Below, in pieces: positions 12,907 to 63,650 of a DNA stretch of 64,000 nucleotides. The number at the start of each line of letters is the position of its first letter. Position 1 is the first letter of the stretch. The translations under genes and the position numbers were made by a program. The DNA is from a virus. The stretch spans positions 1 through 64,000 of the IMG/VR virus record IMGVR_UViG_3300042520_001624. One strand, written 5' to 3'. The notes below the pieces were generated by a model that saw only the letters and a program-made list of their open reading frames with translations, made no database searches and was not told the origin of the DNA.

Positions 12907-12922
12907 TTACGCAGAGGTAATA

Positions 12923-13549
12923 ATGGCTAGCAGCCGCGCGGGACTCAAAAAGATTACGAAGAGCGTTCGGGGCAAGAAAGGGTCTGTCCGGCGTTCTTAT
13001 TGGGTAAAAGCGCAAGAAGCAGCCAAGGGTGCTGGGCGTTTTCTTAACCGGCACAAAGGTAAGATTGCGGCGGGGGCGGCTCTTGCCGGAACGGCTGCAC
13101 TTGCTATCCACAACCGAGGTGCTGTTAAGGGGGCCTACCATGGAGCGCGCATTGCTCACCGAGCATCTGGAGCGGTCTCGCATGGTATGAAGACTGTAAC
13201 CGGCAGTGGCATGTCTCTGCGTAACCGATTCAACATTATCCGCACGGGAGCCATTGGGGGCGCAAAACTTGGTGGGGCCGCCGACTACCTTCGGCATAAT
13301 CCAGGCGTTGCACGGGGGGCGCGGCTTGCGGGCAGGACTGCGGTAGCCGCTGGAACTGTTTACGCGGCCAGACACAATCCTGCTGCCGTGAAAATGGCTG
13401 TTTTGGACGGTATCAACACGGTCCGCGACGGCGTGTCTATGTCTAGACAGACTGGAAACATTCGATGGTTAGGACGCTCTATTGGTGGCGCGCTGCGGTA
13501 TGGCACCGCGGGTGGGCACCTGCGTAAGCTGGGCAGTGTGCTGCAGTAA
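12923..13549 (+). CDS. tagged protein 1 (basic N-terminal tag, glycine-rich body)
   Basis: The start at 12923 places RAGLKKITKSVRGKKG at residues 5-20 with SVRRSYWVK just after, the tag shared by nine proteins in this window. After the tag come RHKGKIAAGAALAGTAAL, a glycine/alanine hydrophobic segment that could insert in membranes, then a basic region rich in Gly, Ala, Arg and His. An upstream ATG at 12902 is in frame but would overlap the predicted -10 box. There is no catalytic motif. By position between portal and scaffold it may be a virion-internal protein. The family is unrecognised. Confidence 0.75.
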   Translation: MASSRAGLKKITKSVRGKKGSVRRSYWVKAQEAAKGAGRFLNRHKGKIAAGAALAGTAALAIHNRGAVKGAYHGARIAHRASGAVSHGMKTVTGSGMSLRNRFNIIRTGAIGGAKLGGAADYLRHNPGVARGARLAGRTAVAAGTVYAARHNPAAVKMAVLDGINTVRDGVSMSRQTGNIRWLGRSIGGALRYGTAGGHLRKLGSVLQ

Positions 13550-13603
13550 ACACAACTTGCAGTTTGTAGCAACAGGCGTAGCATAATCGAAAGAGGTAAC
13601 AAG

Positions 13604-14359
13604 ATGGCTGGTAGCCGTGCAGGTCTCAAGAAGGTAACCAAGGTCGTTCGGGGCAAGCGGGGTTCCGTAAAGCGGACTTACTGGGTAAAGGCCCAGCAGG
13701 CTGCTAAGGGCGTTGGTGGCTTTCTGAAGCGCCACAAGGGCAAGATCGCAGCGGGTGTGGCCTTGGCCGCAGGCGCCGCACTTGCACACCGTCACCGTGG
13801 TGCCATCAAGGGTGCATACCACGGCGCCAAGATTGCCAACAGTGCCGCGGGCGGCGTAAGCCGGGGCATGTCGGCGGTTACAGGCAAGGGTCTTGGTCTT
13901 CGTAATCGGATCAAGGCCATTGCAACGGGCGCACGCGTCGGTGCCGCAGTTGGCGGGGCTGGGGACAGTGGTCGCCGCGCAATGAGTGCTGGCCGCTCAA
14001 TGCTGGACAAGGCACGCAGTCTTCCCTCCGCTGCTCGCGGAGCTGTTGCTGGCGCCAAGTTTGGTGGTCGTGCTGCAGCGGGTGCGGGTCGCGCAGGCGC
14101 CGCTGCAATGGGCGCGGTCGGTCGCGCAACAGTGAGTGGCACCAAGGCGGCTGCACGTCATCTTGGTGCAGGTACTGCGGGTCGCGTAGCTCGTGCGGGT
14201 CTGGGCGCCATGGGCGCCGTTGCACGGGGGACCGTCGGCGCAGTCAAGGGCATCGCACGGGCCACTCCGACGCTGGCAAAGACTGGTGCAATGATCGGAT
14301 ACCACGGCAACCGCGCTCGTCTGGCGGCGGGTCGTGCGTTCGGTCGCAAGAGCAGCTAA
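13604..14359 (+). CDS. tagged protein 2 (basic N-terminal tag, Gly/Ala-rich)
   Basis: This 251-residue paralogue of tagged protein 1 carries RAGLKKVTKVVRGKRG and SVKRTYWVK at residues 5-29, followed by RHKGKIAAGVALAAGAAL. The rest is an extreme Gly/Ala/Arg composition with many GxxxG-like steps, long tracts of ARGAVAG and AGRAGAAAMG type. It has a good ribosome site (AGAGGTAACAAG then ATG). A promoter-like TTGCAG lies upstream at 13557. Such a sequence could be membrane-active or DNA-binding; nothing shows an enzyme. Confidence 0.75.
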   Translation: MAGSRAGLKKVTKVVRGKRGSVKRTYWVKAQQAAKGVGGFLKRHKGKIAAGVALAAGAALAHRHRGAIKGAYHGAKIANSAAGGVSRGMSAVTGKGLGLRNRIKAIATGARVGAAVGGAGDSGRRAMSAGRSMLDKARSLPSAARGAVAGAKFGGRAAAGAGRAGAAAMGAVGRATVSGTKAAARHLGAGTAGRVARAGLGAMGAVARGTVGAVKGIARATPTLAKTGAMIGYHGNRARLAAGRAFGRKSS

Positions 14360-14369
14360 GGAGCGCTAA

Positions 14370-14834
14370 ATGCGGGCAGGGCTAAAGAAAGTCGTCAAGA
14401 CCGTACGCGGTAAACGTGGAACGGTCCGACGCTCCTACTATGTGAAGGCTAACGAGGCTCCTAAAAAGCAGGGGTTTCTTAGCCGACACAAGGGCAAGAT
14501 TGCGGCGGGAGCCCTTGCTCTAGGGGCTGCTGCCCTCGCCTCTCGGCACCGTCTTGCTCTTCGCGGGGCGTACCACGGAGCTAGAGCCGCGCACGTCGAG
14601 AACAAAGCAATCCACAGCAACATGCAGCGTTTTGGCAAAGGCATGAGTCTTATGACTCGGGCTAAGCACATGCTGGGTGGTGCTCGTGTCGGTGCTCAGG
14701 TCGGCAACGAGCTACGTCCGCAGAAGAGTGGAGGCTGGCGACGTCTGCGAAGCGCCGGACAGGCAGTTGCTGCAGGACGTAACGTGAGCTCGTATCTTGC
14801 TGCGTCTAACGCGCTTAGCGGCTATCGCGACTGA
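14370..14834 (+). CDS. tagged protein 3
   Basis: The 154-residue protein begins directly with the tag: MRAGLKKVVKTVRGKRG then TVRRSYYVK. A shorter linker (NEAPKKQG) leads to the same FLSRHKGKIAAGALALG hydrophobic segment found in copies 1, 2, 4 and 5. The remainder is basic and helical. It follows copy 2 after 10 nt with ribosome site AAGGAG. It is probably a direct tandem duplicate that diverged. Confidence 0.75.
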   Translation: MRAGLKKVVKTVRGKRGTVRRSYYVKANEAPKKQGFLSRHKGKIAAGALALGAAALASRHRLALRGAYHGARAAHVENKAIHSNMQRFGKGMSLMTRAKHMLGGARVGAQVGNELRPQKSGGWRRLRSAGQAVAAGRNVSSYLAASNALSGYRD

Positions 14835-15440: not shown

Positions 15441-16131
15441 TCTCAAGAAGGTAATCAAGACCGTTCGCGGCAAAAGAGGTTCTGTAAAGCGGACTTACTG
15501 GGTGAAGTCCCAGGAAGCTCCCCAAAAGCAGGGATTTCTACGTCGACATGCGGGCAAGTTGCTAGCGGGCGCCGCAATTGCAGGTCTGGCTATTGCTAAC
15601 CGCCACAAGCTTTCTGGAGCAGCAAGAGGTGCTCAGATGGCTCTGAACGCTCACAAGCACTCTGGTACACAGCTCAGTACGTCCGAGCGTGCAAAAGACG
15701 CTTTCCGCATGGCAAAAGTTGGTTACGCTTCTAACCGCGGCATGGACCGAGTAGACGGTCTTATGTCGCGGGCTAGAATCCAGGCGCCATTGGCCAGAGA
15801 CGCCGCACAGCGCGGTCTTGCTAAGACACGAGCAGGCGCGCAGCGAGCTATGCGTAACCTCCCGGAGAAGGCAACAGCGTGGCGTCGGGGCACAGGGGCG
15901 GATCTTGCTCATCACCTAGCCACTACCGGGGGGGACGCGGCAGCTAGCCACTTTGGGTCTAGGTTTGGACAAGTTGCAGGCACCGCCCTTGGCGCGCTTG
16001 CTGGAGGCCCCGCAGGCATGGCAATTGGCGGGTTCATTGGCGGACAGGCAGGAGGCTTTTTGGGGAGTCGGCATGCAGCTCCTCACGTTGCCCGAGGCGC
16101 AGAGTGGCTCGCCAACCGACTGCGTAGGTGA
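15430..16131 (+). CDS. tagged protein 5 with glycine-zipper C-terminus
   Basis: The GTG start lies inside the end of copy 4. The tag is RGNLKKVIKTVRGKRG then SVKRTYWVK, followed by FLRRHAGKLLAGAAIAG. The C-terminal 65 residues (VAGTALGALAGGPAGMA, IGGFIGGQAGGFLG) form a clear glycine-zipper segment of the kind found in membrane-inserting and pore proteins. Length is 233 residues. A role in crossing the host membrane during DNA entry would fit, but this is inference from composition and position. Confidence 0.75.
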   Translation: MRGNLKKVIKTVRGKRGSVKRTYWVKSQEAPQKQGFLRRHAGKLLAGAAIAGLAIANRHKLSGAARGAQMALNAHKHSGTQLSTSERAKDAFRMAKVGYASNRGMDRVDGLMSRARIQAPLARDAAQRGLAKTRAGAQRAMRNLPEKATAWRRGTGADLAHHLATTGGDAAASHFGSRFGQVAGTALGALAGGPAGMAIGGFIGGQAGGFLGSRHAAPHVARGAEWLANRLRR

Positions 16132-17231: not shown

Positions 17232-17654
17232 ATGTCTAAAGCGGGATTGCGAAAGGTTACAAAGACGGTTCGCGGTAAAAAGGGAACTGTGCGCCGTTCT
17301 TACTGGGTAAAGAGCGCGGACAACAATCAGCGCCGTAAGAGCGTGTTTAGTCCAGGAGAGTCAGCCTACAGGAAGAACTCAGGACTCGCCTCGGCAAATA
17401 CGGGAGCACGCGTGGGACTAATAGCTGGCCTGCTGGGCGCCCACCGAATTCCGGGGTCGCCGATTGTGTCCGGCGTCGGGGCACAGGTACTCGCACATCG
17501 ACAGCGGAAGCAATACGGCCAGCGCGGTAAGTCTATTTTTGGCAAGCTGGGACATGGCATTGCTACAGAGCTTGGCCACACCACGGGGCACTTTGTAGGG
17601 TCGGCACTGCATGAGGTTGGCCGTGAGGGCGTTAGGCGCTTTTTCCGCAGGTAG
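17232..17654 (+). CDS. tagged protein 6
   Basis: The 140-residue product opens with KAGLRKVTKTVRGKKG then TVRRSYWVK, one of the best-conserved tags. The body differs from the other copies: a Ser/Gln/Arg stretch, then a hydrophobic glycine-rich segment (GARVGLIAGLLGAHRIPG) and a histidine/glycine-rich C-terminus. It is preceded by a TATACT box near 17202 and ribosome site GGGAG. It shows the tag staying constant while the body changes. Confidence 0.75.
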   Translation: MSKAGLRKVTKTVRGKKGTVRRSYWVKSADNNQRRKSVFSPGESAYRKNSGLASANTGARVGLIAGLLGAHRIPGSPIVSGVGAQVLAHRQRKQYGQRGKSIFGKLGHGIATELGHTTGHFVGSALHEVGREGVRRFFRR

Positions 17655-41246: not shown

Positions 41247-41531
41247 ATGGACGCACTAACAACAGTTTCAGTAACGCTGACTACATATCCTACGAATCCG
41301 CAGGTTACACAGACCTGGGAACCGGACTCGATTATGTTTGTGGTTGCCAGTACGACTGCAGCAGACCTCATCTATGTGTCGTTCAACGGGACTTCTGATG
41401 CGGGAGTGCTGCGACCCGGAGTTACAGGTGCGGTTGCTTGGCAGTCTAAGCGCACGAACATCTGGCTCCGTCTAGGTCCTGCGGCCACCAACCCTACGTC
41501 TGTAGACGTGATGACAAGCACGGTGCGCTGA
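41247..41531 (+). CDS. small fibre-locus protein
   Basis: The 94-residue product is beta-rich (SVTLTTYPTNPQVTQTWE, IMFVVASTTAADLIYVSF). It ends TNPTSVDVMTSTVR. The DNA of this end is repeated in the scar at 42422-42470. Its TGA overlaps the ATG of the next fibre gene (TGATG). It may be a fibre accessory or cap. Confidence 0.55.
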   Translation: MDALTTVSVTLTTYPTNPQVTQTWEPDSIMFVVASTTAADLIYVSFNGTSDAGVLRPGVTGAVAWQSKRTNIWLRLGPAATNPTSVDVMTSTVR

Positions 41532-48222: not shown

Positions 48223-48458
48223 CGCTTGAAGCTCTCCGCAAGCTGTAGGAATTTGTCTAAAGGACAGTCCTGAACATGGTGTCCGGGTGGGAAGCCACAC
48301 ACCCGGCACTCTGCTTTTGTCCAGCCGTCAGCATGGCTAGTTTCTGTCGCTAGAGCTTCTGCGATGTCGACCATTTGCCCAATGGCAGCTTCGACCTTCT
48401 CTACACGCAGTTTGAGTTTGGCGATCTCTGCGACCAGATCAGCAGTTGCTTTGTTCAT
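48219..48458 (-). CDS. small coiled-coil zinc-type protein
   Basis: The ATG at 48458 overlaps the stop of the upstream small gene. The 79-residue protein has an N-terminal coiled coil (ATADLVAEIAKLKLRVEKVE) and a C-terminal CRVCGFPPGHHVQDC motif that could bind zinc. No family is recognised. It is coupled on both sides. Confidence 0.6.
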   Translation of the reverse strand: MNKATADLVAEIAKLKLRVEKVEAAIGQMVDIAEALATETSHADGWTKAECRVCGFPPGHHVQDCPLDKFLQLAESFKR

Positions 48459-48607
48459 AGCTTCTCCGAACAGACCAAGCGAAATCCTGTCATTTCGTGC
48501 ACTACGTCTTCGTGAAGGGCGCCACAAAAGCCGGAGCTAGGACGCGGAATCCGGGAGTACATTCCATCCCACCACGAAAAAGCTTTAGTGACTAGGAAGT
48601 CAGGCAC
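48455..48607 (-). CDS. SW/RLC-family small protein E2
   Basis: A GTG inside the Leu-Cys codons of E1 (TTG TGC) starts this 50-residue protein. It has FSWWDGM near the middle and ends TGFRLVCSEKL, the family signature. Its stop overlaps the next gene by ATGA. No ribosome site is seen, so translation probably depends on ribosomes finishing E1. Confidence 0.75.
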   Translation of the reverse strand: MPDFLVTKAFSWWDGMYSRIPRPSSGFCGALHEDVVHEMTGFRLVCSEKL

Positions 48608-48804
48608 AAGCGGAATCCTCTTCGTTTGTCTCGGCTTAGCTTTCCGGGGAGTGTTGCAGGAGTGAGCATGGACTTCAGCTGCACAGCCGGTTCCAAAACA
48701 GCTTTGCCCATCTTGTGATACAGCTTCCAGTCGTAACACTTCCCTATGGTTCGCACGTGGAAAAGCCCCAGCATGCCTGGAGCTAGCTGAAGCGCGGCGC
48801 TCAC
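48592..48804 (-). CDS. SW/RLC-family small protein E1
   Basis: The GTG start overlaps the previous stop (GTGA). The 70-residue protein has a tryptophan segment (CYDWKLYHKMGK) and ends RRGFRLCLTS. It is longer than most members. It is the first of a two-gene array far from the main replication-module arrays, showing the family also spread to this position. Confidence 0.7.
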   Translation of the reverse strand: MSAALQLAPGMLGLFHVRTIGKCYDWKLYHKMGKAVLEPAVQLKSMLTPATLPGKLSRDKRRGFRLCLTS

Positions 48805-50493: not shown

Positions 50494-50874
50494 TCAGTTG
50501 GCGAAGGTTCGGGAGGTATTGTTCAGACGGAAGGCAGCGAGGGGCTTTACCTGATACCGGCGCCCCCCGCTTTCGATCCACATGTCCCAAGAGTAGGTAC
50601 CTGGAGCGATGTAGGCAGGGAGATTGATGTCGAGGTTTGCTCGACCCAGACGATCTCCCTGCGTGGTCGATATACTGTACAGAGGCGACATGTTGTAGTC
50701 GACTAGCCGGAAGGACAACGTGGTCCCGATCAAGCTAGCTTCCTGTCCGCTGTTCAGGAGGATTTGCACCTCCATGTTCATGCTCTCACCCTTGGGAAGG
50801 TCGAGAGTGTTCGCGGTTACAACCTCATTGTCGTCTTCGGCAATGTTCCAGACACCTACAATGTACTTGTACAT
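50494..50874 (-). CDS. beta-rich hypothetical protein
   Basis: The 126-residue protein has an Ig-like or BppU-N-like strand pattern (NMEVQILLNSGQEASLIG, GTYSWDMWIESGGRRYQVK). Such domains bind other virion proteins in some phages, yet this gene lies with DNA-metabolism genes. It ends AAFRLNN..., which I do not count with the RLC family because the domain is different. Confidence 0.5.
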   Translation of the reverse strand: MYKYIVGVWNIAEDDNEVVTANTLDLPKGESMNMEVQILLNSGQEASLIGTTLSFRLVDYNMSPLYSISTTQGDRLGRANLDINLPAYIAPGTYSWDMWIESGGRRYQVKPLAAFRLNNTSRTFAN

Positions 50875-54046: not shown

Positions 54047-55098
54047 CGGGACTCCTGTATGGCTTTGTTGATGGTCTCTGCAAGATCTGTCTGCTTGTCT
54101 GTCTCAACCTGAGAAGCAGCAGTCCAGATGTAGGATTCAGGATCTTCGCATCCGGCTACGGGATTGGTCATCTCGTACTCGCCTTCAGCATACGCTTGGT
54201 GGACTTGGTATCCGGACAGAAGCCCGGAGGATACCAGATCTTTCGCGTGCTCTTCTTGGTGCTGCTCTACCCGAGCGTACACCGAGAAGTCGGAGAGGTA
54301 CTTCAGATCTGCCATCCACGTAACAAACTTGTCTGGACTGCCTGTGATTGACAGTGGCAGCCCTCGCAAGTCCAGGAACTTGGGAGTCAGGGCGGAGGGA
54401 ATGCTTACACGTCCGTCTGTTGTAAAGACGCGTAGAGGCTTGTCTACGTCCGAGAAGTTCAGGGGGAGTAGAGATCCGCAGGAAACTCCCCAAGAGGTTG
54501 TCGTTGTAGAGTCGTGCTCGTGTCCAAAGAACGCTTTGACAGTTCCACGATTGAACATGCCGATAAGCTTGCTCATGTCTGCGGCTGTAACACAGTCCGG
54601 ACGGGGACTTGTGTCTACAAAACCGTAGTGAACTGCTAGATTGCAGCGCCCTTGGGCGGACAGTTGCTCCAGAACTTTCAAAGCTTCCATGGCATTTGGT
54701 CCGGAGTAGGGAACCATTAGCCAACGCTCTCCGCGGATCTGTGCAAACTGGGCTGTGTCGCAGATACAGACATTACCCGCATGGTTCATGGGAGCCAATG
54801 CGCTAGGAGCGTCATAAGACGCGATGTCATGGTTCCCTGCGATGATGTGCCACTCGACTCCGGTGGCAGCGATCATATCCAGAGATGCGTTTAGAATCTG
54901 GGGGGATGGCTTGGGACCATCGAAGAAGTCCCCCAGCTGTACGATGTGCGTAACACCGTAGTGGAGCTTTGCGTACTCAACAATCTGATAAACAGACTGG
55001 AGAATGTCTCGGCACCTGCGATTGAGACCGGCGACTACTGGACCCCCAAACTGTTTGTGGTTCCAGACATGGAGGTCGCCCAACACCAGGGTTGTCAT
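54043..55098 (-). CDS. sbcD: SbcD/Mre11-type nuclease
   Basis: The 351-residue protein has the Mre11 phosphoesterase motifs in order: GDLHVWN, QLGDFFDGPKPSP, IIAGNHDIASYD, NLAVHYGFVD and FFGHEHDS. A C-terminal capping part follows. It works with the SbcC-like ATPase as 3'-5' exonuclease and endonuclease. Its start overlaps the stop of small protein D2 (ATGA). Confidence 0.9.
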   Translation of the reverse strand: MTTLVLGDLHVWNHKQFGGPVVAGLNRRCRDILQSVYQIVEYAKLHYGVTHIVQLGDFFDGPKPSPQILNASLDMIAATGVEWHIIAGNHDIASYDAPSALAPMNHAGNVCICDTAQFAQIRGERWLMVPYSGPNAMEALKVLEQLSAQGRCNLAVHYGFVDTSPRPDCVTAADMSKLIGMFNRGTVKAFFGHEHDSTTTTSWGVSCGSLLPLNFSDVDKPLRVFTTDGRVSIPSALTPKFLDLRGLPLSITGSPDKFVTWMADLKYLSDFSVYARVEQHQEEHAKDLVSSGLLSGYQVHQAYAEGEYEMTNPVAGCEDPESYIWTAASQVETDKQTDLAETINKAIQESR

Positions 55099-55250
55099 GT
55101 GGTTACGCTCAGCCGCAGTCCAAGCCAGTCAAACTTGTAGTAGTCGCTTCCGGTTTGTTTGGTGTGGCGGTCTCTGTAAGAACGTACTTCTTCCCAAGAG
55201 TAAACGTAGCCTAGCGCTAGTTTTTGTCTGTTGTTTGAGTAGCTACGCAC
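55095..55250 (-). CDS. SW/RLC-family small protein D2
   Basis: GTG inside the Leu-Cys codons (CTG TGC) of D1 starts this 51-residue protein. It has YSWEEVRSYRDRH and ends DWLGLRLSVTT; the usual Cys is Ser. Its stop overlaps the SbcD start (ATGA), so the array feeds straight into a core recombination gene. Confidence 0.8.
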   Translation of the reverse strand: MRSYSNNRQKLALGYVYSWEEVRSYRDRHTKQTGSDYYKFDWLGLRLSVTT

Positions 55251-55414
55251 AGTCTTACACCGTTTCGTTCGTAGATTTTTCCAGCTGTCATTAGGTCGGG
55301 AAGACGGCAGTCCATTTGCCTTGCCCACATGAAATGAAAACCGTAACTTACTAGAGCGTGTTTTGCTCTCGGAGGTCGCGGCGTACTGTTCCGCAGAAAC
55401 GCTGGAAGTGGCAT
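55217..55414 (-). CDS. SW/RLC-family small protein D1
   Basis: The ATG lies just two nt beyond the end of the tRNA gene. The 65-residue product contains HFMWARQMDCRLP and ends in ERNGVRLCVATQTTDKN. The overlap with D2 is 34 nt, the longest in the family. Tryptophan motif is diverged. Confidence 0.7.
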   Translation of the reverse strand: MPLPAFLRNSTPRPPRAKHALVSYGFHFMWARQMDCRLPDLMTAGKIYERNGVRLCVATQTTDKN

Positions 55415-55416
55415 AG

Positions 55417-55490
55417 TCCCCACGCCCGGACTCGAACCGGGACATATCTACTTTTGACGTAGACGCCGCTGCCAATTGGGCTACGTGGGG
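55417..55490 (-). tRNA. tRNA-Leu (anticodon CAA)
   Basis: A 7-bp acceptor stem (CCCCACG with CGTGGGG), a D-arm containing AATTGGCAG, an anticodon arm TCTAC-GTCAAAA-GTAGA with anticodon CAA, a 5-nt variable loop and a perfect T-arm (CCCGG-TTCGAGT-CCGGG) are all present. CAA would decode UUG leucine. The long variable arm normal for bacterial leucine tRNAs is missing, so charging identity is uncertain. CCA is not encoded. Confidence 0.85.
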
Positions 55491-56473: not shown

Positions 56474-56496
56474 CTGACAAGAACAACTCTTGTCAG
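56474..56496. repeat. perfect 9-bp inverted repeat overlapping a stop codon
   Basis: CTGACAAGA (56474-56482) and TCTTGTCAG (56488-56496) flank a 5-nt loop. The stop codon of the small gene at 56493 lies in the stem. No T-run follows on the minus strand. It may be an RNA hairpin acting between that gene and SSB. Confidence 0.6.
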
Positions 56497-56633
56497 AAGC
56501 TCATGCACAACCGCAGTCCTACCCAGAAGCAGGAGTCGTGCGGGCTTTGCGTTAGGTCGTTGTCGCGTCCGTACAGATCTACTTCAAAGTACGACCAGCG
56601 TTTACCGAACAGCCTGTACTCAACCTCGGACAT
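56493..56633 (-). CDS. SW/RLC-family small protein F
   Basis: This single 46-residue member lies between the UvsY-like gene and SSB. Its ATG is inside the last codons of the upstream gene (14-nt overlap). It has GKRWSYFEVDLYG and ends FWVGLRLCMSF. It is the only member not in tandem; the following inverted repeat may mark where an array ended. Confidence 0.78.
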   Translation of the reverse strand: MSEVEYRLFGKRWSYFEVDLYGRDNDLTQSPHDSCFWVGLRLCMSF

Positions 56634-57042: not shown

Positions 57043-57228
57043 TTACGCGCGCTGTGCACAAGGAGAAGATAGCAACTCGCTACCGGCCTTGTCAAGCCCA
57101 TTGTCATTGTGTGTCACTGCCAGCCGAAACGAACCTTGGCGTGTGTAGTCTCGGTCGGGCATTGGGTAGTCTCCCAGCAAGAAGTATTTTCCGCTGGCGA
57201 TGTACCCGTTAGTGTAGGTTACGATCAT
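57043..57228 (-). CDS. SW/RLC-family small protein B6
   Basis: The last of six tandem genes, 61 residues, overlapping B5 by 20 nt. It lacks the tryptophan motif (it has KYFLLGDYPMPDRDY) but has QGSFRLAVTHNDN, the family motif, followed by a long 24-residue extension with cysteine near the end. Probably a decayed or diverged member. Confidence 0.65.
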   Translation of the reverse strand: MIVTYTNGYIASGKYFLLGDYPMPDRDYTRQGSFRLAVTHNDNGLDKAGSELLSSPCAQRA

Positions 57229-57391
57229 ACGTCACCGACAGTCGTAAGCCTATCGCCCCGTGAGATCCTGAAAGTTCTCTGAAAGCGAACAGATGCCCTG
57301 TGAGCACGCAAGAGCTGCTGTGCGTTCCTTCTACTGCCCAGCCAAAGCTTGCGTAGGTTACTATGGGCGGGTTTGGTCTGTACTTATGCAT
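57209..57391 (-). CDS. SW/RLC-family small protein B5
   Basis: Its ATG lies inside the Tyr-Ala codons (TAT GCA) of B4. The 60-residue protein has SFGWAVEGTHSSS and ends AIGLRLSVTYDRNLH. VTY replaces the usual LC motif ending, and the next start lies within these codons. Confidence 0.75.
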   Translation of the reverse strand: MHKYRPNPPIVTYASFGWAVEGTHSSSCVLTGHLFAFRELSGSHGAIGLRLSVTYDRNLH

Positions 57392-57545
57392 ACGTCATTT
57401 TCAGACGAAACCCCATACGGTCTGTCCTAACTGTAATTCTGTAATGCCACTTCAGACAGTTAAAGTCTGTGGCCCTAGAAAGAGCTGAATTCTCCATGTC
57501 GTAGAAGCAGGGGGCCACAGTCTCTACTTGAGCTTCGTCATGCAT
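57384..57545 (-). CDS. SW/RLC-family small protein B4
   Basis: The 53-residue protein starts MHDEAQVE, nearly the same as MHDEDQVK of B3, and ends DRMGFRLKMTYA, nearly identical to the end of B3 (QMGFRLEMTYA). The middle (LKWHYRITVRT) differs. B3 and B4 are thus a recent duplication pair with conserved ends. The overlap with each neighbour is 8 nt (ATGCATRA). Confidence 0.82.
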   Translation of the reverse strand: MHDEAQVETVAPCFYDMENSALSRATDFNCLKWHYRITVRTDRMGFRLKMTYA

Positions 57546-57711
57546 ACGTCATCTCCAGCCTAAACCCCATCTGATTGCGTTCAGTATGGTCTTTAAACTT
57601 CCAAGACCAGTCGCCGTCTTGTGCTTCTGACAAAACAGCTGTGGCCTGTTCGCGCCAGCTGGGAGACACAGTCTGTACCCAAGCAGCCTTCACTTGATCT
57701 TCGTCATGCAT
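57538..57711 (-). CDS. SW/RLC-family small protein B3
   Basis: The 57-residue protein starts MHDEDQVKAAW, has two tryptophan motifs (SPSWREQA and GDWSWKFKD) and ends QMGFRLEMTYA. Its start codon lies in TAT GCA of B2 and its own TAT GCA gives the start of B4. Confidence 0.82.
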   Translation of the reverse strand: MHDEDQVKAAWVQTVSPSWREQATAVLSEAQDGDWSWKFKDHTERNQMGFRLEMTYA

Positions 57712-57841
57712 ACGTCATTTCCAGTCGCAAAGATCCGTACTTTGGCTGGAGGTCGCGTTTCGCAATAAAACTATCCAGCAGCAAGCTTGTGTTTAGCGAG
57801 TGAAAGCTGTAACTCCAGATTACCATGTGTTTATGGCGCAT
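57704..57841 (-). CDS. SW/RLC-family small protein B2
   Basis: The 45-residue protein starts within the last codons of B1 (TAT GCG). It has VIWSYSFHSLN and ends KYGSLRLEMTYA. The RLEMTYA end is shared with B3. Confidence 0.8.
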   Translation of the reverse strand: MRHKHMVIWSYSFHSLNTSLLLDSFIAKRDLQPKYGSLRLEMTYA

Positions 57842-57959
57842 AAAACACTCCCAGTCGGAACGAGCCATTGTTGCCATGCTCGTCCCCAGGAAACTGCCAG
57901 CTTTGAAAGTGCGACACTTCTGGATACGTCAGTGCGTTACCACGTGAAAGCACTCTCAT
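57831..57959 (-). CDS. SW/RLC-family small protein B1
   Basis: First of the array after DNA polymerase; the ATG is 5 nt after the polymerase stop. The 42-residue product has HFQSWQFPGDEHG and ends NGSFRLGVFYAP. No ribosome site; it probably depends on polymerase translation. Confidence 0.78.
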   Translation of the reverse strand: MRVLSRGNALTYPEVSHFQSWQFPGDEHGNNGSFRLGVFYAP

Positions 57960-57964
57960 GTAAG

Positions 57965-60721
57965 CTACTTTACCTTTTGCATGTTTCCCCATGAGGGACC
58001 TCTCTTTGCATCCGCAGTCAGCGGAGTGTTACCGAACAGGGGCTGCGTCATTGCAGTCTTGAGAAACTGAACAGTCTTCTCGACGTCTTCAGTTCGGACC
58101 ATGACCATGATTGAGTCGTAGACCTGCAGGATGAGCTTGCCGCCGTCTGTATTGGCACGCAGCCAGAGCACAGTCTCCCAGAGGTGGGAAGCAATGACGT
58201 CTACGGAGCTGCCCTGCACAGGCCCGTTGTACGTACTACGCGCTGCGTTAAGGTCGTAACGCTTTCTGTTCTCTCTGTCTTTCTTGATACCTTTCTCAAG
58301 ATCAGACAAGGTAGAAGGGTTACGGCCAAGACCCCAGAGAGGTCTACGTCGAGCAGACTCCCCCTTCCAGCTAGTCCGAGAGTAACCTGCAGACCAAGCT
58401 GCAGAGTACTGCTCTTCCATCCAAGCCCGGAGTCGGGTGTAGGTTTGGAACATGGAGACAGCGAGGGCCTCACCGTCTTTGTTGGGGATGCCCAAGCGAC
58501 CTGCAAGCATTCCTCCGAGCTCGGAAGGTATTTCGTAGATCGCTGCGAAGTTACTGGTCTTAGCGTTCTCTCTGTCGAGGTCTGTAACCTTCTCGGGATC
58601 CTTGCCTACGGCTACAGCGAACTTCTTGGCAGAAGCCATGTGGAAGTCTGTGCCTGCTGTAAGCATCTCGTGCATCGCAGGGTCGCCAGACAGGTGGGCA
58701 GCACCCCTGATCTCGATTTGCCCTGCGTCTACTTCTACGATCTCCCATCCGGGGGAACAGCTGAAGCAAGCACGTAGCTTGTCGGCCAGCTTCTTCTTAC
58801 GCTCGGTTCTACCCTTGCTCACATTGAACAAGTTAGGATCTTGACTGGAGGCTCGGCCGCTCTCAGTCCCGTCTGCAAGGTAGCTGGGATGTACGTAGCC
58901 GTCGGACCGGACAAAGTGCCCGTAGCCAATGGCGTATGTCCCAAGCTGCTTGGTAAGCTCCCGATGCTGTAGAATGAGATCTACAATTGGATGCTTCTTC
59001 TTGAAGTCTTCCAGAGCATCGTCAGAGTAAGAAGGCTTACCGCTGGATGTCTTCTTCTTGGGGACAATGCCAAGAGTAGACAGGTAAGCACCTACCTGCG
59101 GAGAAGATCCGGGATTGAGTCCGGGCTTGTACCCGTCGATCTTGGCCTGTACCTGCTTGAGCTCTGTCTCAAGGTACTGTGCGAACAGCTGGAGGCCCCC
59201 CTTGTCGAGGGGCATGCCGTTCATGCGCATCTCGCAGTAAGCCCACATAGCGGGCTTGGAGACTTCCTCCCAGAGCAGGCACATGCCGGGATCAAGGATC
59301 AGGCGGGAGTTGCACCAGTCTTCCAGATGCCATGTGGTAAAGGCGTCTCGGGCACAGTACCTCCAGAGAATGTCCTTGGGCATGAAGCGGTATGCAAACT
59401 TCTCCTCGTCGAAACCTGCATCGAGATACTCGAACCACTTGTTCCAAGTGGCTGTGTCCAGAGCAGCTGGCTGAATGTAGGTAAGAGTCGGAGGCTTACG
59501 TGTCTTGCCAGTGGGTGTCGTCTGGAAAGACATGCGGTACTTGCGGAGCTCATCGCAGATAGCTGCGAGTACTGTGTGAGCTTCCTGCTTGTGTCCGCCC
59601 ATACCGATGAGGTTGGCGGAGGTACCGAGGTCTGCAGCTGCGTCTGCCTCCAGCAGCTTACGCTTGATGCGGGCGTCTGACTGCAGGTTCATACTGCCGT
59701 GCTCTGTTTTGTATAGAGCAGAGCGGGAGCCAGCACCTACACGGGCATCGTGGTACCCGTAGCCGTACCTTGCTTCTGGGTCACACTGGAAGGCAGTGTA
59801 GTCGTACTGCCCATTCCAAGATGTCTGCGGCAGAGATAGAATCTGCTGCATGTAGGGATGGGGCATGTCTGGGGGGATGTCGTAGTCATCCCCCTGGTAT
59901 GCAAACCAGTACTCACGGGGCCAGACCCATACATGGTCTTCTGTGGAGGTAGCCACGCACTCAATGCGGAAGTCATCCTCGAACATCATCCCGGAGGTCT
60001 CAACGTCCGTGGCGATGTAAGGTGCCTTGCGGCACTCTAGGAGGGCATTGCGGGCAGCCTCCAGCGTGGTGACGACGGTGTACTGGGCGTCGAGCAATCG
60101 GGCACTGGGCGGGCTCTGGAGGGCTGTAGCGATGTCCTGCTCCAGAGCCATGCGGATGAGGCGGTTGGAGAGGGCGTAGCTGGGATCTGGCAGGAAAAAG
60201 ACAGGCTTGGGACCATCGTTGTAGAACCAGCCGTAGCCAGTACGTACAGACAGAGCCCTGTACGTCTCCCCAAGGACAGACAGACCCGCAAGAGGACCTA
60301 CGAGGAAGATGACCTTGGCATCGGAATCTACAATGTCCTGATGCATGTAAGGTCTACACGCATCTACACATGCAGGGATGTCCTGATCTGGAACCAGCTC
60401 CCCGTCGGGCTTACGCTTGAAGGTAGGCTTGCAGCCCAGCGATAGCGAGTAGACTACGTCCCTGCCCGGAGCCACAGACTCGAAGATGGCTCGGAGGGAC
60501 TGGCCTGCGTTGTCCGCAAGGGGGCGCCCAAGTCTGCGCTCGAACTCTCCGGGGTACTCACCGACAACCAAGATGTCTCCGGGGGTTCCCTCGGGGGAGA
60601 TACAGCGCTGTCCTGCTGGCGTTAGCGTGTGTAGCTCGCAACGGGTACAAGCACTGGAGCGTTCGAGGGGCTGAACTGTCTGAACGACGGGGAGTCGCTT
60701 GCCGGGAAACAGGGGGAGCAC
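57965..60721 (-). CDS. family A DNA polymerase fused to a UDG-like domain
   Basis: The GTG start has AGAGG upstream. The 918-residue protein has three parts. Residues about 20-200 are uracil-DNA-glycosylase-like (GDILVVGEYPGEFERRLG, PLADNAGQSLRAIFES). A 3'-5' exonuclease domain follows (ATDVETSGMMFEDDF, SWNGQYDYTAF, YCARDAFTTWHLED). The polymerase has motif A EVDAGQIEIRGAAHLSGD, motif B ENAKTSNFAAIYEIPSELGG and motif C ILQVYDSIMVMV. Motif C has Tyr-Asp-Ser where most family A enzymes have His-Asp-Glu. It is the replicative polymerase. Confidence 0.92.
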   Translation of the reverse strand: MLPLFPGKRLPVVQTVQPLERSSACTRCELHTLTPAGQRCISPEGTPGDILVVGEYPGEFERRLGRPLADNAGQSLRAIFESVAPGRDVVYSLSLGCKPTFKRKPDGELVPDQDIPACVDACRPYMHQDIVDSDAKVIFLVGPLAGLSVLGETYRALSVRTGYGWFYNDGPKPVFFLPDPSYALSNRLIRMALEQDIATALQSPPSARLLDAQYTVVTTLEAARNALLECRKAPYIATDVETSGMMFEDDFRIECVATSTEDHVWVWPREYWFAYQGDDYDIPPDMPHPYMQQILSLPQTSWNGQYDYTAFQCDPEARYGYGYHDARVGAGSRSALYKTEHGSMNLQSDARIKRKLLEADAAADLGTSANLIGMGGHKQEAHTVLAAICDELRKYRMSFQTTPTGKTRKPPTLTYIQPAALDTATWNKWFEYLDAGFDEEKFAYRFMPKDILWRYCARDAFTTWHLEDWCNSRLILDPGMCLLWEEVSKPAMWAYCEMRMNGMPLDKGGLQLFAQYLETELKQVQAKIDGYKPGLNPGSSPQVGAYLSTLGIVPKKKTSSGKPSYSDDALEDFKKKHPIVDLILQHRELTKQLGTYAIGYGHFVRSDGYVHPSYLADGTESGRASSQDPNLFNVSKGRTERKKKLADKLRACFSCSPGWEIVEVDAGQIEIRGAAHLSGDPAMHEMLTAGTDFHMASAKKFAVAVGKDPEKVTDLDRENAKTSNFAAIYEIPSELGGMLAGRLGIPNKDGEALAVSMFQTYTRLRAWMEEQYSAAWSAGYSRTSWKGESARRRPLWGLGRNPSTLSDLEKGIKKDRENRKRYDLNAARSTYNGPVQGSSVDVIASHLWETVLWLRANTDGGKLILQVYDSIMVMVRTEDVEKTVQFLKTAMTQPLFGNTPLTADAKRGPSWGNMQKVK

Positions 60722-60730
60722 TTGAACCTC

Positions 60731-60874
60731 TTAGCGGGTTTGAGTGGTGAGTCTGAGTCCGAAGATGGTGGTTCGGGCTTGAGGACGACTGATTGTGCCG
60801 AAACGTATAGCGTGTACAAACAGTATTGTTTCGTCGTCCCAAGACGCATTGGCAGCGTACATTACACTACGCAT
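60731..60874 (-). CDS. SW/RLC-family small protein C5
   Basis: The 47-residue protein starts with ATG inside CTA TGC of C4. It has NASWDDETILF and ends TIFGLRLTTQTR. It ends 10 nt before the polymerase start and is the last of array C. Confidence 0.82.
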   Translation of the reverse strand: MRSVMYAANASWDDETILFVHAIRFGTISRPQARTTIFGLRLTTQTR

Positions 60875-60990
60875 AGTCTTATCCCGAAGTACTTTGTTGT
60901 TGCCGACTGCGGAAAAGGTTCGCCGCTAAGAAAACAGGACTCGTCTTCATACGCAGTAAAGACTGCCAGTCGGGCTCTTAGTGCAGACAT
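60862..60990 (-). CDS. SW/RLC-family small protein C4
   Basis: The 42-residue protein begins at an ATG inside CTA TGT of C3. It lacks a clear tryptophan motif (FTAYEDESCFL in that place) and ends KYFGIRLCVV. The Y-E-D may be a substitution for W-D-D. Confidence 0.78.
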   Translation of the reverse strand: MSALRARLAVFTAYEDESCFLSGEPFPQSATTKYFGIRLCVV

Positions 60991-61130
60991 AGTCGCAGTC
61001 CCATGTAGCGAAGACGTCGCGTTTTCGGCTCTATGCCAAAGGACATTTCGCCGTTGAGCAGCAACCAGCGCGTATCGCAGTCTCCTACAAACGAGTGTCG
61101 GAAATACAGACTCACTTGGCACCTACGCAC
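60978..61130 (-). CDS. SW/RLC-family small protein C3
   Basis: The 50-residue protein starts at GTG inside CTG TGC of C2. It has DTRWLLLNGEMSFG and ends RYMGLRLCLH. Confidence 0.78.
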   Translation of the reverse strand: MRRCQVSLYFRHSFVGDCDTRWLLLNGEMSFGIEPKTRRLRYMGLRLCLH

Positions 61131-61231
61131 AGCCGGAAAGACATGCGGTAGCGGTATACACTCTTTTCAAAGTCTGTTTCTCCGTTTGCAAAGTGTGTTG
61201 TTCCGTAGGAAAACCCGAAGATGTGTACCAT
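61112..61231 (-). CDS. SW/RLC-family small protein C2
   Basis: The ATG at 61231 lies just after the FSLRIA codons of C1, giving a 39-residue protein that ends RYRMSFRLCVGAK; an ATG at 61285 would give 57 residues. It is almost wholly nested within C1 in another frame. It has the C-terminal motif but no tryptophan. Confidence 0.6.
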   Translation of the reverse strand: MVHIFGFSYGTTHFANGETDFEKSVYRYRMSFRLCVGAK

Positions 61232-61365
61232 GTAGCGATCCTCAGCGAGAATCTCGGGTTCTGGTCTGTTAGCTGGGCTGTCCATGGATAGGGCCTGTGT
61301 TTGAGAAGGGAGAAGTAGTCGTTCCAAGATCCGCCCAGAATCTTCTGAACTCGGAAAGTCTGCAT
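61123..61365 (-). CDS. SW/RLC-family small protein C1, possibly frame-extended
   Basis: The 80-residue product has KILGGSWNDYFSLL, the family's best match to a GGSW motif, and PRFSLRIATWY where others end with GFRLCV. It then runs on another 30 residues across C2. A lost stop or an indel after RIATWY would explain the extra length. The start is the ATG at 61365. Confidence 0.6.
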   Translation of the reverse strand: MQTFRVQKILGGSWNDYFSLLKHRPYPWTAQLTDQNPRFSLRIATWYTSSGFPTEQHTLQTEKQTLKRVYTATACLSGCA

Positions 61366-61372
61366 GTGTATA

Positions 61373-61396
61373 GGGTGGGGCTGCAAAGCCCCACCC
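61373..61396. terminator. strong GC-rich hairpin
   Basis: GGGTGGGGCT, loop GCAA, AGCCCCACCC: a perfect 10-bp stem between the gene at 61448 and array C. There is no T-run. It may be a partial terminator or mRNA stabiliser separating the two gene groups. Confidence 0.6.
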
Positions 61397-61447: not shown

Positions 61448-62428
61448 CTACTTGTCGAGGAGCTTGGTCTTGGCTGCGCCAGCATACAGCTTCATCGTGG
61501 ACTGTCGGGTGATCTTGTAGATCTCTTCGGGAGTGACGTTGAGCGCCGGGTGCTTCCCGATCATGGAGACGAGCAGGTCTTCGACCATCTGGGCGCTGAC
61601 ACCCTGCTCTGTCTTGAGATGCGTACAGGCGTGCTTGACTGCCAGACCGAGCATGGGCTTGGGTTCCCCCGCCAGGGCTTCCAGCACGCTGTTGGCTGCC
61701 TCGGAGGGAGCGTTAGCGACCGGAGAGGCTACAGGTGCGTTCACGGGCACTGCAGGGGCTGCTACGGGCTCCTGCGGAGCCTCTGCCTTCTTCCCGGACA
61801 TGGCAGCCCGGAAAAGCTCCTTGGCTTCCTCGGGTTCTACGTTCAGGACTTCTGCCAGTCGGAAGGCCAGAGTATTGGACCCCCTAAGCTTGTCGGGCTC
61901 TGCCAGCTTCTTGATGGCTCCCGCATGGTCCTTCCAGACCTTCAGAGCATCCTGCATGGTCTTGATCTTCTTACAGTCTTCTTCAAAGAGGAAGAGGACG
62001 TCGTTGACCAGCTTGGGGCTGTCGACTTCCGGAGCGACGTGGACCTTGGGGGGTGCAACCGCGGGAGGAGCCACTACGACCGGAGGGGGCTCGGGGGCTG
62101 CAACTTCCTGAACGACCGGAGCGTACGTGACGATGTTCTCCGGCTTGAACAGGGGTACCTGTCGCTCGTCGGTCTGCTGCAGGAGTTCCTTCTTGAAGGC
62201 TTCCGCAATGTTCTGCGGGTTCACGCTGGGGTTGATGGTGACGGTCAGGTCTTGGGGTGCTGCTCGGTAGTTGAACTTCCGGATGTAGTCGAAGAGTTCT
62301 GTGTACTCTTCGTAGCTGTCGACGACCACTTCGATGCTGACCGTCTTCTTCGGGTCGTGGCCGTCGTGGTGGGTTCGGTACTCGCTGAAATCAACGTTGA
62401 GATCTCGGATGGTCATGGTCTCGCTCAC
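61448..62428 (-). CDS. hypothetical protein with Pro/Ala linkers
   Basis: The 326-residue protein starts with GTG overlapping the HIRAN stop (ATG at 62416 is also possible). A beta/alpha N-terminal domain (SIEVVVDSYEEYTELFDYI) is followed by a Pro/Val/Ala linker (residues about 108-135), a helical domain (FLFEEDCKKIKTMQDALKV), a second Pro/Ala linker and a C-terminal helical domain. No known motif. It may be a replication accessory. Confidence 0.55.
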   Translation of the reverse strand: MSETMTIRDLNVDFSEYRTHHDGHDPKKTVSIEVVVDSYEEYTELFDYIRKFNYRAAPQDLTVTINPSVNPQNIAEAFKKELLQQTDERQVPLFKPENIVTYAPVVQEVAAPEPPPVVVAPPAVAPPKVHVAPEVDSPKLVNDVLFLFEEDCKKIKTMQDALKVWKDHAGAIKKLAEPDKLRGSNTLAFRLAEVLNVEPEEAKELFRAAMSGKKAEAPQEPVAAPAVPVNAPVASPVANAPSEAANSVLEALAGEPKPMLGLAVKHACTHLKTEQGVSAQMVEDLLVSMIGKHPALNVTPEEIYKITRQSTMKLYAGAAKTKLLDK

Positions 62429-62742
62429 TTGGTCTGGGGTGGAAGGTAGATGGAGAGGACAACGCCGGAGGCGTCTACCTGGGTCACTTTGGCGTGCATG
62501 TTGTAGCCATGCTGCTTGAGCCGGAAGACTACTTCCTTGAGGATGCTACGAGCCACGTATCCGGCTTGCTCCAGTCCGTGATAGACAGCAACTGCAGTGT
62601 TGTCGTGCGGGTTGCGAGGCTCGATCTCTAGCGACAGTGTCTTGTTGAGGATCGAGGCGGGGTTGGGGATGTCGTGATGCTTGTAGCCCGCGAGGGTACA
62701 GTCGAACAGCTTGAAATACTCGGGATCGGTTGTGATTGTCAT
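62425..62742 (-). CDS. HIRAN-domain protein
   Basis: The ATG at 62742 overlaps the stop of A7 (ATGA). The 105-residue product has LSLEIEPRNPHDNTAVAVYH, EQAGYVARSILKEVVF and a C-terminal strand (DASGVVLSIYLPPQ), matching the HIRAN pattern E-x-x-NPxDxxA-V ... G-Y-[LV]. HIRAN domains bind DNA ends or stalled forks, suiting a replication operon. Confidence 0.78.
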   Translation of the reverse strand: MTITTDPEYFKLFDCTLAGYKHHDIPNPASILNKTLSLEIEPRNPHDNTAVAVYHGLEQAGYVARSILKEVVFRLKQHGYNMHAKVTQVDASGVVLSIYLPPQTK

Positions 62743-62897
62743 TGTTCTTCTTTCAGAGTGAGGGAGAGTCTTAGGCCAAAGGCTTTGGAATAGTAAGCTG
62801 TGTGGACATAGCTGCTCCAGCCACCGACCAGCGCAGCTACGGGCACTTGCAGGTCCCAAGCATGTCCTGCGGTGTGTTTTACGTTACCGAAGTACAC
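62739..62897 (-). CDS. SW/RLC-family small protein A7
   Basis: GTG inside CTG TGT of A6 starts a 52-residue protein. It has GHAWDLQVPVAA and a second GGWSSYVHTAYY, and ends KAFGLRLSLTLKEEQ. The stop overlaps the HIRAN start (ATGA). Confidence 0.82.
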   Translation of the reverse strand: MYFGNVKHTAGHAWDLQVPVAALVGGWSSYVHTAYYSKAFGLRLSLTLKEEQ

Positions 62898-63025
62898 AGT
62901 CTTATGCTCTTGTAGGAGACGCCGTGAGTTGGATATGAACTTCTGAAAGACTGGCTGGGAGGTCGAAAGAAGCCGCGCGTGCTTTCGTCCCACGCGAACC
63001 ACAAAGACATTGTTATTGAATGCAC
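62879..63025 (-). CDS. SW/RLC-family small protein A6
   Basis: GTG inside CTG TGC of A5 starts a 48-residue protein (an ATG at 63010 would give 43). It has LWFAWDESTRGFF and ends YKSIRLCTSVT. Confidence 0.8.
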   Translation of the reverse strand: MHSITMSLWFAWDESTRGFFRPPSQSFRSSYPTHGVSYKSIRLCTSVT

Positions 63026-63135
63026 AGTCTTAGTCCTACGTATTCGGCGTCCGTCTCAACGAATCGGATACTTACGGCTCGGAGTGGATTAAAGTCGTCC
63101 CACGAAGTCCAAATCATCCGTTTGACATACAACAT
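63013..63135 (-). CDS. SW/RLC-family small protein A5
   Basis: ATG inside CTA TGT of A4 starts a 40-residue protein with IWTSWDDFNPLRAV and the end EYVGLRLCIQ. It is one of the shortest and clearest members. Confidence 0.85.
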   Translation of the reverse strand: MLYVKRMIWTSWDDFNPLRAVSIRFVETDAEYVGLRLCIQ

Positions 63136-63266
63136 AGCCGAACTCCCATGCAGTGATACTTTTTAACGACCAGCAGAATGACGGGCGCGTGCTTTGGTTG
63201 CCAGTCGTCGTTCCAAGACGTGTTTGCGATAGCCGTCGCACTCATTTTAGGCGTTACGAAACGCAT
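63114..63266 (-). CDS. SW/RLC-family small protein A4
   Basis: ATG inside CTA TGC of A3 starts a 50-residue protein with IANTSWNDDWQPK and the end CMGVRLCCMSNG. The overlap with A5 is 22 nt. Confidence 0.83.
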   Translation of the reverse strand: MRFVTPKMSATAIANTSWNDDWQPKHAPVILLVVKKYHCMGVRLCCMSNG

Positions 63267-63385
63267 AGTCTCAGTCCGAAGTACAGGGCTTGGGTGCCTC
63301 TAAAGTAAGACCAGTGTACACGGCGATAGGAGGTTACTTGGTCGTCCCAAGAGATCCAAGACTTTACTAGATGATCTTCGTGCAC
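63254..63385 (-). CDS. SW/RLC-family small protein A3
   Basis: GTG inside CTG TGC of A2 starts a 43-residue protein with KSWISWDDQVTSYRRV and the end LYFGLRLCVS. Its start VHEDHLVKSW resembles MHDEDQVKAAW of B3, linking arrays A and B. Confidence 0.85.
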   Translation of the reverse strand: MHEDHLVKSWISWDDQVTSYRRVHWSYFRGTQALYFGLRLCVS

Positions 63386-63504
63386 AGCCGTACTCCCAGA
63401 TAGACTCTGTCTGAACTGTCGCTGTAATACCACGTCATGCTAAGGTGCCGATTGTCGTGATCGTCCCAAGAGATCAAAGGTTTGACTCTTAGATTGCAGT
63501 ACAC
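63367..63504 (-). CDS. SW/RLC-family small protein A2
   Basis: GTG inside CTG TGT of A1 starts a 45-residue protein with PLISWDDHDNRHLSMTWY and the end VYLGVRLCTKII. It has no ribosome site of its own. Confidence 0.85.
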   Translation of the reverse strand: MYCNLRVKPLISWDDHDNRHLSMTWYYSDSSDRVYLGVRLCTKII

Positions 63505-63650
63505 AGTCTTACTCCTCTCCACGGGGCTTTTGTTTGCGCGTAGTTGCATGCTGCGTCTCTGGACGGTAGCCACCCTTCGTCCCAGCTGCCGAAGAAGTAG
63601 TAGCCGTACATGGCTAGGCGAGGCACTTTTGAATCTCTGTTTGTAGCCAT
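63489..63650 (-). CDS. SW/RLC-family small protein A1
   Basis: The first member of array A starts at an ATG inside the end of the primase gene (37-nt overlap). The 53-residue protein has FFGSWDEGWLPSRDAA and ends APWRGVRLCTAI. The G-S-W-D...R-D-A-A...G-V-R-L spacing is the closest of all to the C-terminal end of formylglycine-generating enzymes. Confidence 0.83.
   Translation of the reverse strand: MATNRDSKVPRLAMYGYYFFGSWDEGWLPSRDAACNYAQTKAPWRGVRLCTAI

Follow-up and report, generated by a model that had tools for sequence, protein, structure and literature searches.

Chained Arrays of Paralogous Micro-Genes in the Replication Operon of an Unclassified Bacterial Virus: A Candidate Family of Small Phage Proteins

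Organization of the Micro-Gene Arrays

The replication genes of the virus record IMGVR_UViG_3300042520_001624 (IMG/VR) are separated by gaps occupied by short minus-strand open reading frames (ORFs), hereafter micro-ORFs or micro-genes, which overlap each other and usually end in a common peptide tail. The window consists of bases 1–64000 of this 71,484-bp record, and bases 57000–71484 were also analysed. As judged from its sequence, the virus is an unclassified bacterial virus of an isolated tailed-phage lineage, since its polymerase, terminase, helicases and major capsid protein find distant matches only (mostly 22–32% identity) and no DNA-level match occurs among phage records for the region.

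In the gap located between the primase and the HIRAN genes, a sequence-only reading of the window had recognized seven tandem frames (array A), all of which are present, with their stops at the lower coordinates given in Table 1. Their regular build was properly described: each frame ends shortly after an Arg-Leu pair (3–8 residues beyond RL in all seven) and each next start lies 13–22 nucleotides (nt) ahead of the preceding stop, the fifth and sixth frames being either overlapped by 13 nt, using GTG 63025, or separated by 2 nt, using ATG 63010. The [S/A]W[D/N] motif, previously counted in the first half of six frames, is real and occurs in all seven.

Array A is not, however, a solitary array of seven genes but one of about ten stretches. 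The members were first located by searching the full record for frames that end in [VILFMT]RL[CSAT], and the final list comprises 42 of them, 23 having their start within the window. The family contains at least 42 members (39–80 codons, median 47), all encoded on the minus strand between positions 48455 and 71354, where they occupy nearly every gap between the replication genes; none occurs in the late region. The 29 neighbouring pairs overlap by 4–34 nt, with the exception of a single 2-nt gap, and several large genes are also overlapped at their start or end by micro-ORFs, e.g., a helicase gene at its end (ORF 64735) and the primase gene at its start (ORF ending at 64467). GTG, formerly regarded as the start of most frames, opens three or four of the seven in array A, whereas ATG is the chosen start of 34 of the 42 members family-wide.

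Over nine gap stretches (6.5 kb), 37 minus-strand frames end in a hydrophobic residue (Φ) followed by R-L and a short tail, compared to 4.75 ± 2.2 in 200 dinucleotide shuffles of the same stretches and to 3 on the plus strand. With [GS] placed before ΦRL, there are 30 minus-strand frames versus 0.6 ± 0.8 in the shuffles (maximum 4), and none on the plus strand. Chance as the origin of the arrays is excluded, as had been claimed from the regularity of array A, and it is near certain that the arrays are real.

The C-Terminal Tail as Start and Ribosome-Binding Site of the Next Gene

A [G/S/T]-Φ-R-L sequence occurs near the C-terminus of all members but one. At most links, the R-L-C codons read MGR-CTR-TGY and hold the ATG or GTG of the gene that follows; in 27 members, L and C are written YTR-TGY, and the RTG contained therein is mostly the start of the next micro-gene. 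Among the 27 CTRTGY sites found in a [GST]xRL context, 22 open another motif-ending ORF and two more open an ORF with a longer tail, the remaining three, devoid of any follow-on motif ORF, being all located at array ends. Downstream starts overlap or abut the end of the upstream gene, the arrangement expected for translational coupling. The ribosome site, which was thought to be lacking, had been missed because it sits inside the preceding gene: GGAG or GGA occurs about 7 nt ahead of most starts, within the GV/GL codons of that gene. In this respect, the glycine codon of linked tails is GGA in 15 out of 18 cases, against 22% in the long genes (p = 5e-8), which provides a Shine-Dalgarno sequence, GGA(G), ahead of the next start.

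The 57-kb array has its embedded start shifted to 'acgtATG' in the TYA/TYD codons, and GFRL or SLRL is retained. Array-final members are mostly devoid of the cysteine (GLRLS, GFRLS, TFRLT, GLRLT, GFRLA), with the remainder of the tail kept. RLC does not behave as the single peptide motif it was taken for: its C is largely dictated by the downstream start (CT-RTG-Y), and [GST]ΦRL together with the subsequent Φ-[TS] is the sole part that behaves as if constrained at the protein level.

Evidence for a Protein Family

Neither R nor L varies among the 40 motif-bearing members that were scored, despite the use of six Arg codons (AGA, CGG, CGA, CGT, AGG, CGC) and six Leu codons. Since ΦRL persists in tails lacking an embedded start and its codons vary synonymously, the micro-ORFs point to a protein family, beyond a DNA signal only. 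A conserved DNA or RNA signal, such as a promoter or an RNA structure leaving open frames by accident, would account for the string MGRCTRTGY that recurs at a spacing of 101–140 nt. Such a signal is most improbable, however, taking into account this synonymous variation, the retention of the peptide without the string in the 57-kb array, the folding of the array RNA, which is no better than that of shuffles (z = +1.7), and an Rfam search that gave no match.

Besides the tail, a W serving as an aromatic anchor is present in 35 of the 40 members. The bodies of adjacent members are more similar than those of non-adjacent ones (mean z 1.48 versus 0.28, p = 8e-4), some pairs being clear duplicates. 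The earlier idea of overlapping paralogous micro-genes is upheld, the frames looking real by sequence. The micro-ORFs are rich in W (3.2%), Y (5.8%), F (5.4%), R (8.8%) and S (9.3%) compared to the long proteins of the phage (1.5, 3.0, 2.6, 5.8 and 6.5%, respectively), A and E are scarce, and the enrichment in W, Y and F occurs in the reading frame but not in shifted frames. This composition would resemble that of binding surfaces.

Other results have to be balanced against points that weigh against a functional protein family. In a leave-one-out test using hidden Markov models (HMMs), 33 of the 42 held-out members score above every non-member frame, but nine fail, and the separation is partly circular because the members were partly chosen by motif. 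In six paralog pairs, the non-synonymous proportion of differences (pN) is lower than the synonymous one (pS), the pairs being aligned as protein, which favours a low pN. The micro-ORFs have a flatter codon-position composition than the long genes do, conservation is documented solely by the paralogs of one record because no relative was found, and two AlphaFold2 runs gave no confident fold (mean predicted local distance difference test scores of 63.5 and 57.5).

It may be argued that the micro-ORFs only ferry ribosomes across the operon gaps, as translation-relay spacers whose peptides are functionless. The start and Shine-Dalgarno sequence embedded in the tail codons and the overlaps with the large genes agree with this explanation, which is nevertheless distinctly unlikely: R and L are fixed despite synonymous changes, hydrophobic-R-L is kept without an embedded start, the bodies are homologous and commonly share the aromatic anchor, and up to seven relays per gap are unnecessary for coupling. 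The embedded start and Shine-Dalgarno sequence would also allow selfish intergenic elements, of little benefit to the phage, to be duplicated into the gaps without breaking the translation of the operon. Copies occupy almost every gap of a single operon but are absent from the late region, and this distribution, together with the evident tandem duplicates, is consistent with this idea. It is quite improbable, however, since a mobility function is implausible in 40–60 residues, terminal repeats were not seen, pN is below pS in the paralog pairs and, local tandem pairs excepted, the few near-identical copies argue against a recent spread.

Distribution of the Members and Genome Context

The members located in the window are listed in Table 1, together with the large genes that adjoin the gaps.

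Table 1. Micro-ORFs of the window and genes of the record adjoining micro-gene-bearing gaps.
Feature	Position	Strand	Characteristics
Array A micro-ORF 1	63489–63611	-	MYGYYFFGSWDEGW..GVRLCTAI; alternative upstream ATG 63650
Array A micro-ORF 2	63367–63504	-	GTG start in ORF 1 RLC codons; ..ISWDD..GVRLCTKII
Array A micro-ORF 3	63254–63385	-	GTG start in ORF 2 RLC codons; ..ISWDD..GLRLCVS
Array A micro-ORF 4	63114–63266	-	ATG start in ORF 3 RLC codons; ..TSWNDD..GVRLCCMSNG
Array A micro-ORF 5	63013–63135	-	ATG start in ORF 4 RLC codons; ..TSWDDF..GLRLCIQ
Array A micro-ORF 6	62879–63010	-	..FAWDE..SIRLCTSVT; alternative GTG 63025 in ORF 5 RLC codons
Array A micro-ORF 7, last before HIRAN gene	62739–62897	-	..HAWDL..GLRLSLTLKEEQ; S in place of C, without an embedded start
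Array B atypical first member	61123–61365	-	MQTFRVQKILGGSWNDY..FSLRIATWY plus C-terminal extension
Array B micro-ORF	61112–61231	-	..MSFRLCVGAK
Array B micro-ORF	60978–61130	-	..YMGLRLCLH
Array B micro-ORF	60862–60990	-	..YFGIRLCVV
Array B final member, preceding DNA polymerase	60731–60874	-	..ASWDDE..IFGLRLTTQTR; C replaced by T
57-kb array member	57831–57992	-	..QSWQF..GSFRLGVFYAP
57-kb array member	57704–57841	-	..YGSLRLEMTYA; next start in TYA codons
57-kb array member	57538–57711	-	MHDEDQV..MGFRLEMTYA; next start in TYA codons
57-kb array member	57384–57545	-	MHDEAQV..MGFRLKMTYA; next start in TYA codons
57-kb array member	57209–57391	-	MHKYR..IGLRLSVTYDRNLH; next start in TYD codons
57-kb array last member	57043–57228	-	MIVTY..GSFRLAVTHND..
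Single micro-ORF	56493–56633	-	..KRWSYF..VGLRLCMSF
Micro-ORF at tRNA-Leu 3' end	55217–55414	-	ATG 55414; ..NGVRLCVATQTTDKN
Micro-ORF, last before SbcD-like gene	55095–55250	-	..YSWEE..LGLRLSVTT; C replaced by S
Outlying micro-ORF	48592–48774	-	..RGFRLCLTS
Outlying micro-ORF	48455–48607	-	GTG start in preceding member's RLC codons; ..FSWWDG..TGFRLVCSEKL
DNA polymerase	57965–60721		
HIRAN gene	62425–62741		PF08797 at 4.6e-5, just under the Pfam cut-off
Primase	63614–64474		
DnaB-like helicase	64713–66041		
Another DNA helicase	67983–69341		

The atypical first member of array B possesses a GGSWNDYF anchor, and its tail FSLRIATWY, located at the start of the next gene, is followed by an in-frame extension of about 30 residues. 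A GC-rich hairpin, GGGTGGGGCTTTGCAGCCCCACCC (61373–61396, minus strand), a possible terminator or attenuator, occurs between the gene at 61448–62428 and the next micro-gene array. The sole tRNA found, a tRNA-Leu with the anticodon CAA (55416–55490, minus strand), directly precedes a two-member array. Paralogous DNA repeats, 71–85% identical over 77–236 bp, are distributed in plus-strand ORFs of the late region (12913–13827, 14382–14513, 15441–15573 and 17241–17317), with no Pfam match for the five ORFs tested and no PHROGs match for the two tested. Short direct repeats (42–71 bp, 86–89% identity) similarly occur in plus-strand genes, at 41475–41544/42413–42483 and 42386–42427/44322–44363.

Search for Relatives

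Searches of Pfam and PHROGs and a profile search of the PDB gave no convincing relative of the micro-proteins. Searching annotated phages by tblastn with six micro-proteins yielded only two weak Streptococcus phage matches (E ~1), and triple-motif DNA patterns retrieved nothing but repeats or fortuitous matches, as seen when each frame was checked, from IMG/VR viral contigs and GTDB genome contigs. Scans of the IMG/VR viral contigs with the polymerase, the terminase, one late gene and a helicase yielded no close relative, and such arrays are absent from the stretches examined of the distant phages MaInes, ctfzr933, phiKX1 and Kromp. The open-access literature gave no published description of such arrays, and the previous statement that no system of this form has been described agrees with all these searches. 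No described family or system was found to match the micro-genes. A 126-residue orphan protein (50494–50874, minus strand) ending in GTYSWDMWIESGGRRYQVKPLAAFRLNNTSRTFAN (SWD...FRL) was considered as a parent; the idea was dropped, both the family HMM and Pfam failing to match it.

Resemblance to the FGE-Sulfatase/C-Type Lectin Domain

When the 42-member profile was compared by hhalign to windows cut from 15 real FGE domains, a score of 20.0 (Prob 79, 37 columns) was obtained for the C-terminal window, against 3.9–13.8 for the other 21. Random halves of the family gave 16.9–20.6 and removal of the SWDD members 17.1, whereas column-permuted profiles reached at most 12.2 and tail-kept permutations 17.5. 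The resemblance to the SW...GFR module (Prob 70–79) is specific to that window, over few columns. In hmmscan, no member matches PF03781 at E up to 1–10, although an FGE-like C-terminal peptide of similar length does so (6e-7, 29.8 bits). The resemblance, weak but specific, should be taken as a lead and not as membership.

The micro-proteins could be remote members of the FGE-sulfatase/C-type lectin superfamily, cut to its C-terminal SW...GFRL module, a claim of ancestry that is compatible with the explanation preferred below. The window-specific score, the agreement between halves and the position above the permuted controls speak for it. Such an ancestry is unlikely, however, in view of the hmmscan result and of a likeness consisting mainly of W and G-hydrophobic-R about 30 residues apart, for which convergence is possible; moreover, the full domain needs about 250 residues, and neither a reverse transcriptase (PF00078, E up to 10) nor an FGE gene was found in the 71.5-kb record, which is possibly incomplete. 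In full-length FGE/C-type lectin proteins, the SW...GFRL stretch is the part varied by diversity-generating retroelements (DGRs). A DGR was rejected here: besides the reverse transcriptase and the FGE gene, near-identical template and variable repeats with adenine-biased differences were not found either, self-BLAST giving only 31–45-nt matches between neighbouring micro-genes.

Proposed Function of the Micro-Proteins

The explanation we prefer, to which we give about an even chance, assumes that some 42 paralogous micro-proteins are encoded in the gaps of the replication operon by chains of translationally coupled genes and that their bodies bind different targets. Paralogy, a protein-level constraint on the tail, and the usual presence of the next start and Shine-Dalgarno sequence inside the tail codons are supported by the sequence; with respect to function, the best guess would be a repertoire of small, hypervariable binding proteins produced in the course of replication. 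The common scaffold would consist of a strand-like N-terminus, an aromatic anchor, [S/A]W or another, and the C-terminal [GST]-Φ-R-L-x-Φ-[TS] tail, surrounding a hypervariable body rich in aromatics and Arg/Ser. With the start and Shine-Dalgarno sequence located inside the preceding tail, ribosomes ending one gene could begin the next, and the micro-proteins would be co-translated during the DNA-replication phase. The tail may dock to a common partner or complete a common fold, and the variable bodies may bind different, probably host, targets involved in takeover or anti-defence. The set would have expanded through tandem duplication and fast divergence. A doubtful extension of this explanation sees in the arrays an antibody-like phage repertoire, in which dozens of mini-proteins built on a fixed scaffold with two anchors, which may correspond to a C-type-lectin C-terminal module standing alone, would display hypervariable surfaces, be produced by the embedded-start relay and address many host or defence targets at once.

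If translated, the micro-genes would represent a large family of paralogs, probably missed by standard annotation, within a phage genome of small size, and a compact dual code, in which a C-terminal protein motif also supplies the following gene with its ribosome-binding site and its start codon. They would also offer a natural variant set of one tiny scaffold, and the way phages build and diversify small host-directed protein sets would become testable. Similar dark arrays are probably worth seeking in the 'empty' gaps of other phage operons.

Comparison with Known Systems

Clusters of small early genes in phages, e.g., the host-takeover module of SPO1, consist of many genes, mostly unrelated, which possess their own signals and presumably act on the host. 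The micro-genes resemble them in being small, numerous and close to replication functions, but differ in being paralogs that share one tail and are chained via overlapping starts. At the profile level, they weakly resemble the last 37 columns of the FGE-sulfatase/C-type lectin domain (PF03781), including the variable proteins of DGRs, with SW, a variable stretch and GFRL; in contrast, the micro-proteins comprise 40–60 residues instead of about 250, find no hmmscan match, and are accompanied by no detected reverse transcriptase or template repeat. Finally, in termination-reinitiation coupling (PMC12548453), co-oriented genes overlap, the downstream start precedes the upstream stop and the Shine-Dalgarno sequence lies inside the upstream gene. 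In arrangement, the micro-genes conform to this description, their starts preceding the preceding stop and their Shine-Dalgarno sequences lying within the upstream gene. Unlike ordinary translational coupling, however, a peptide tail conserved family-wide encodes both the start and the Shine-Dalgarno sequence, at about 25 links in one operon.
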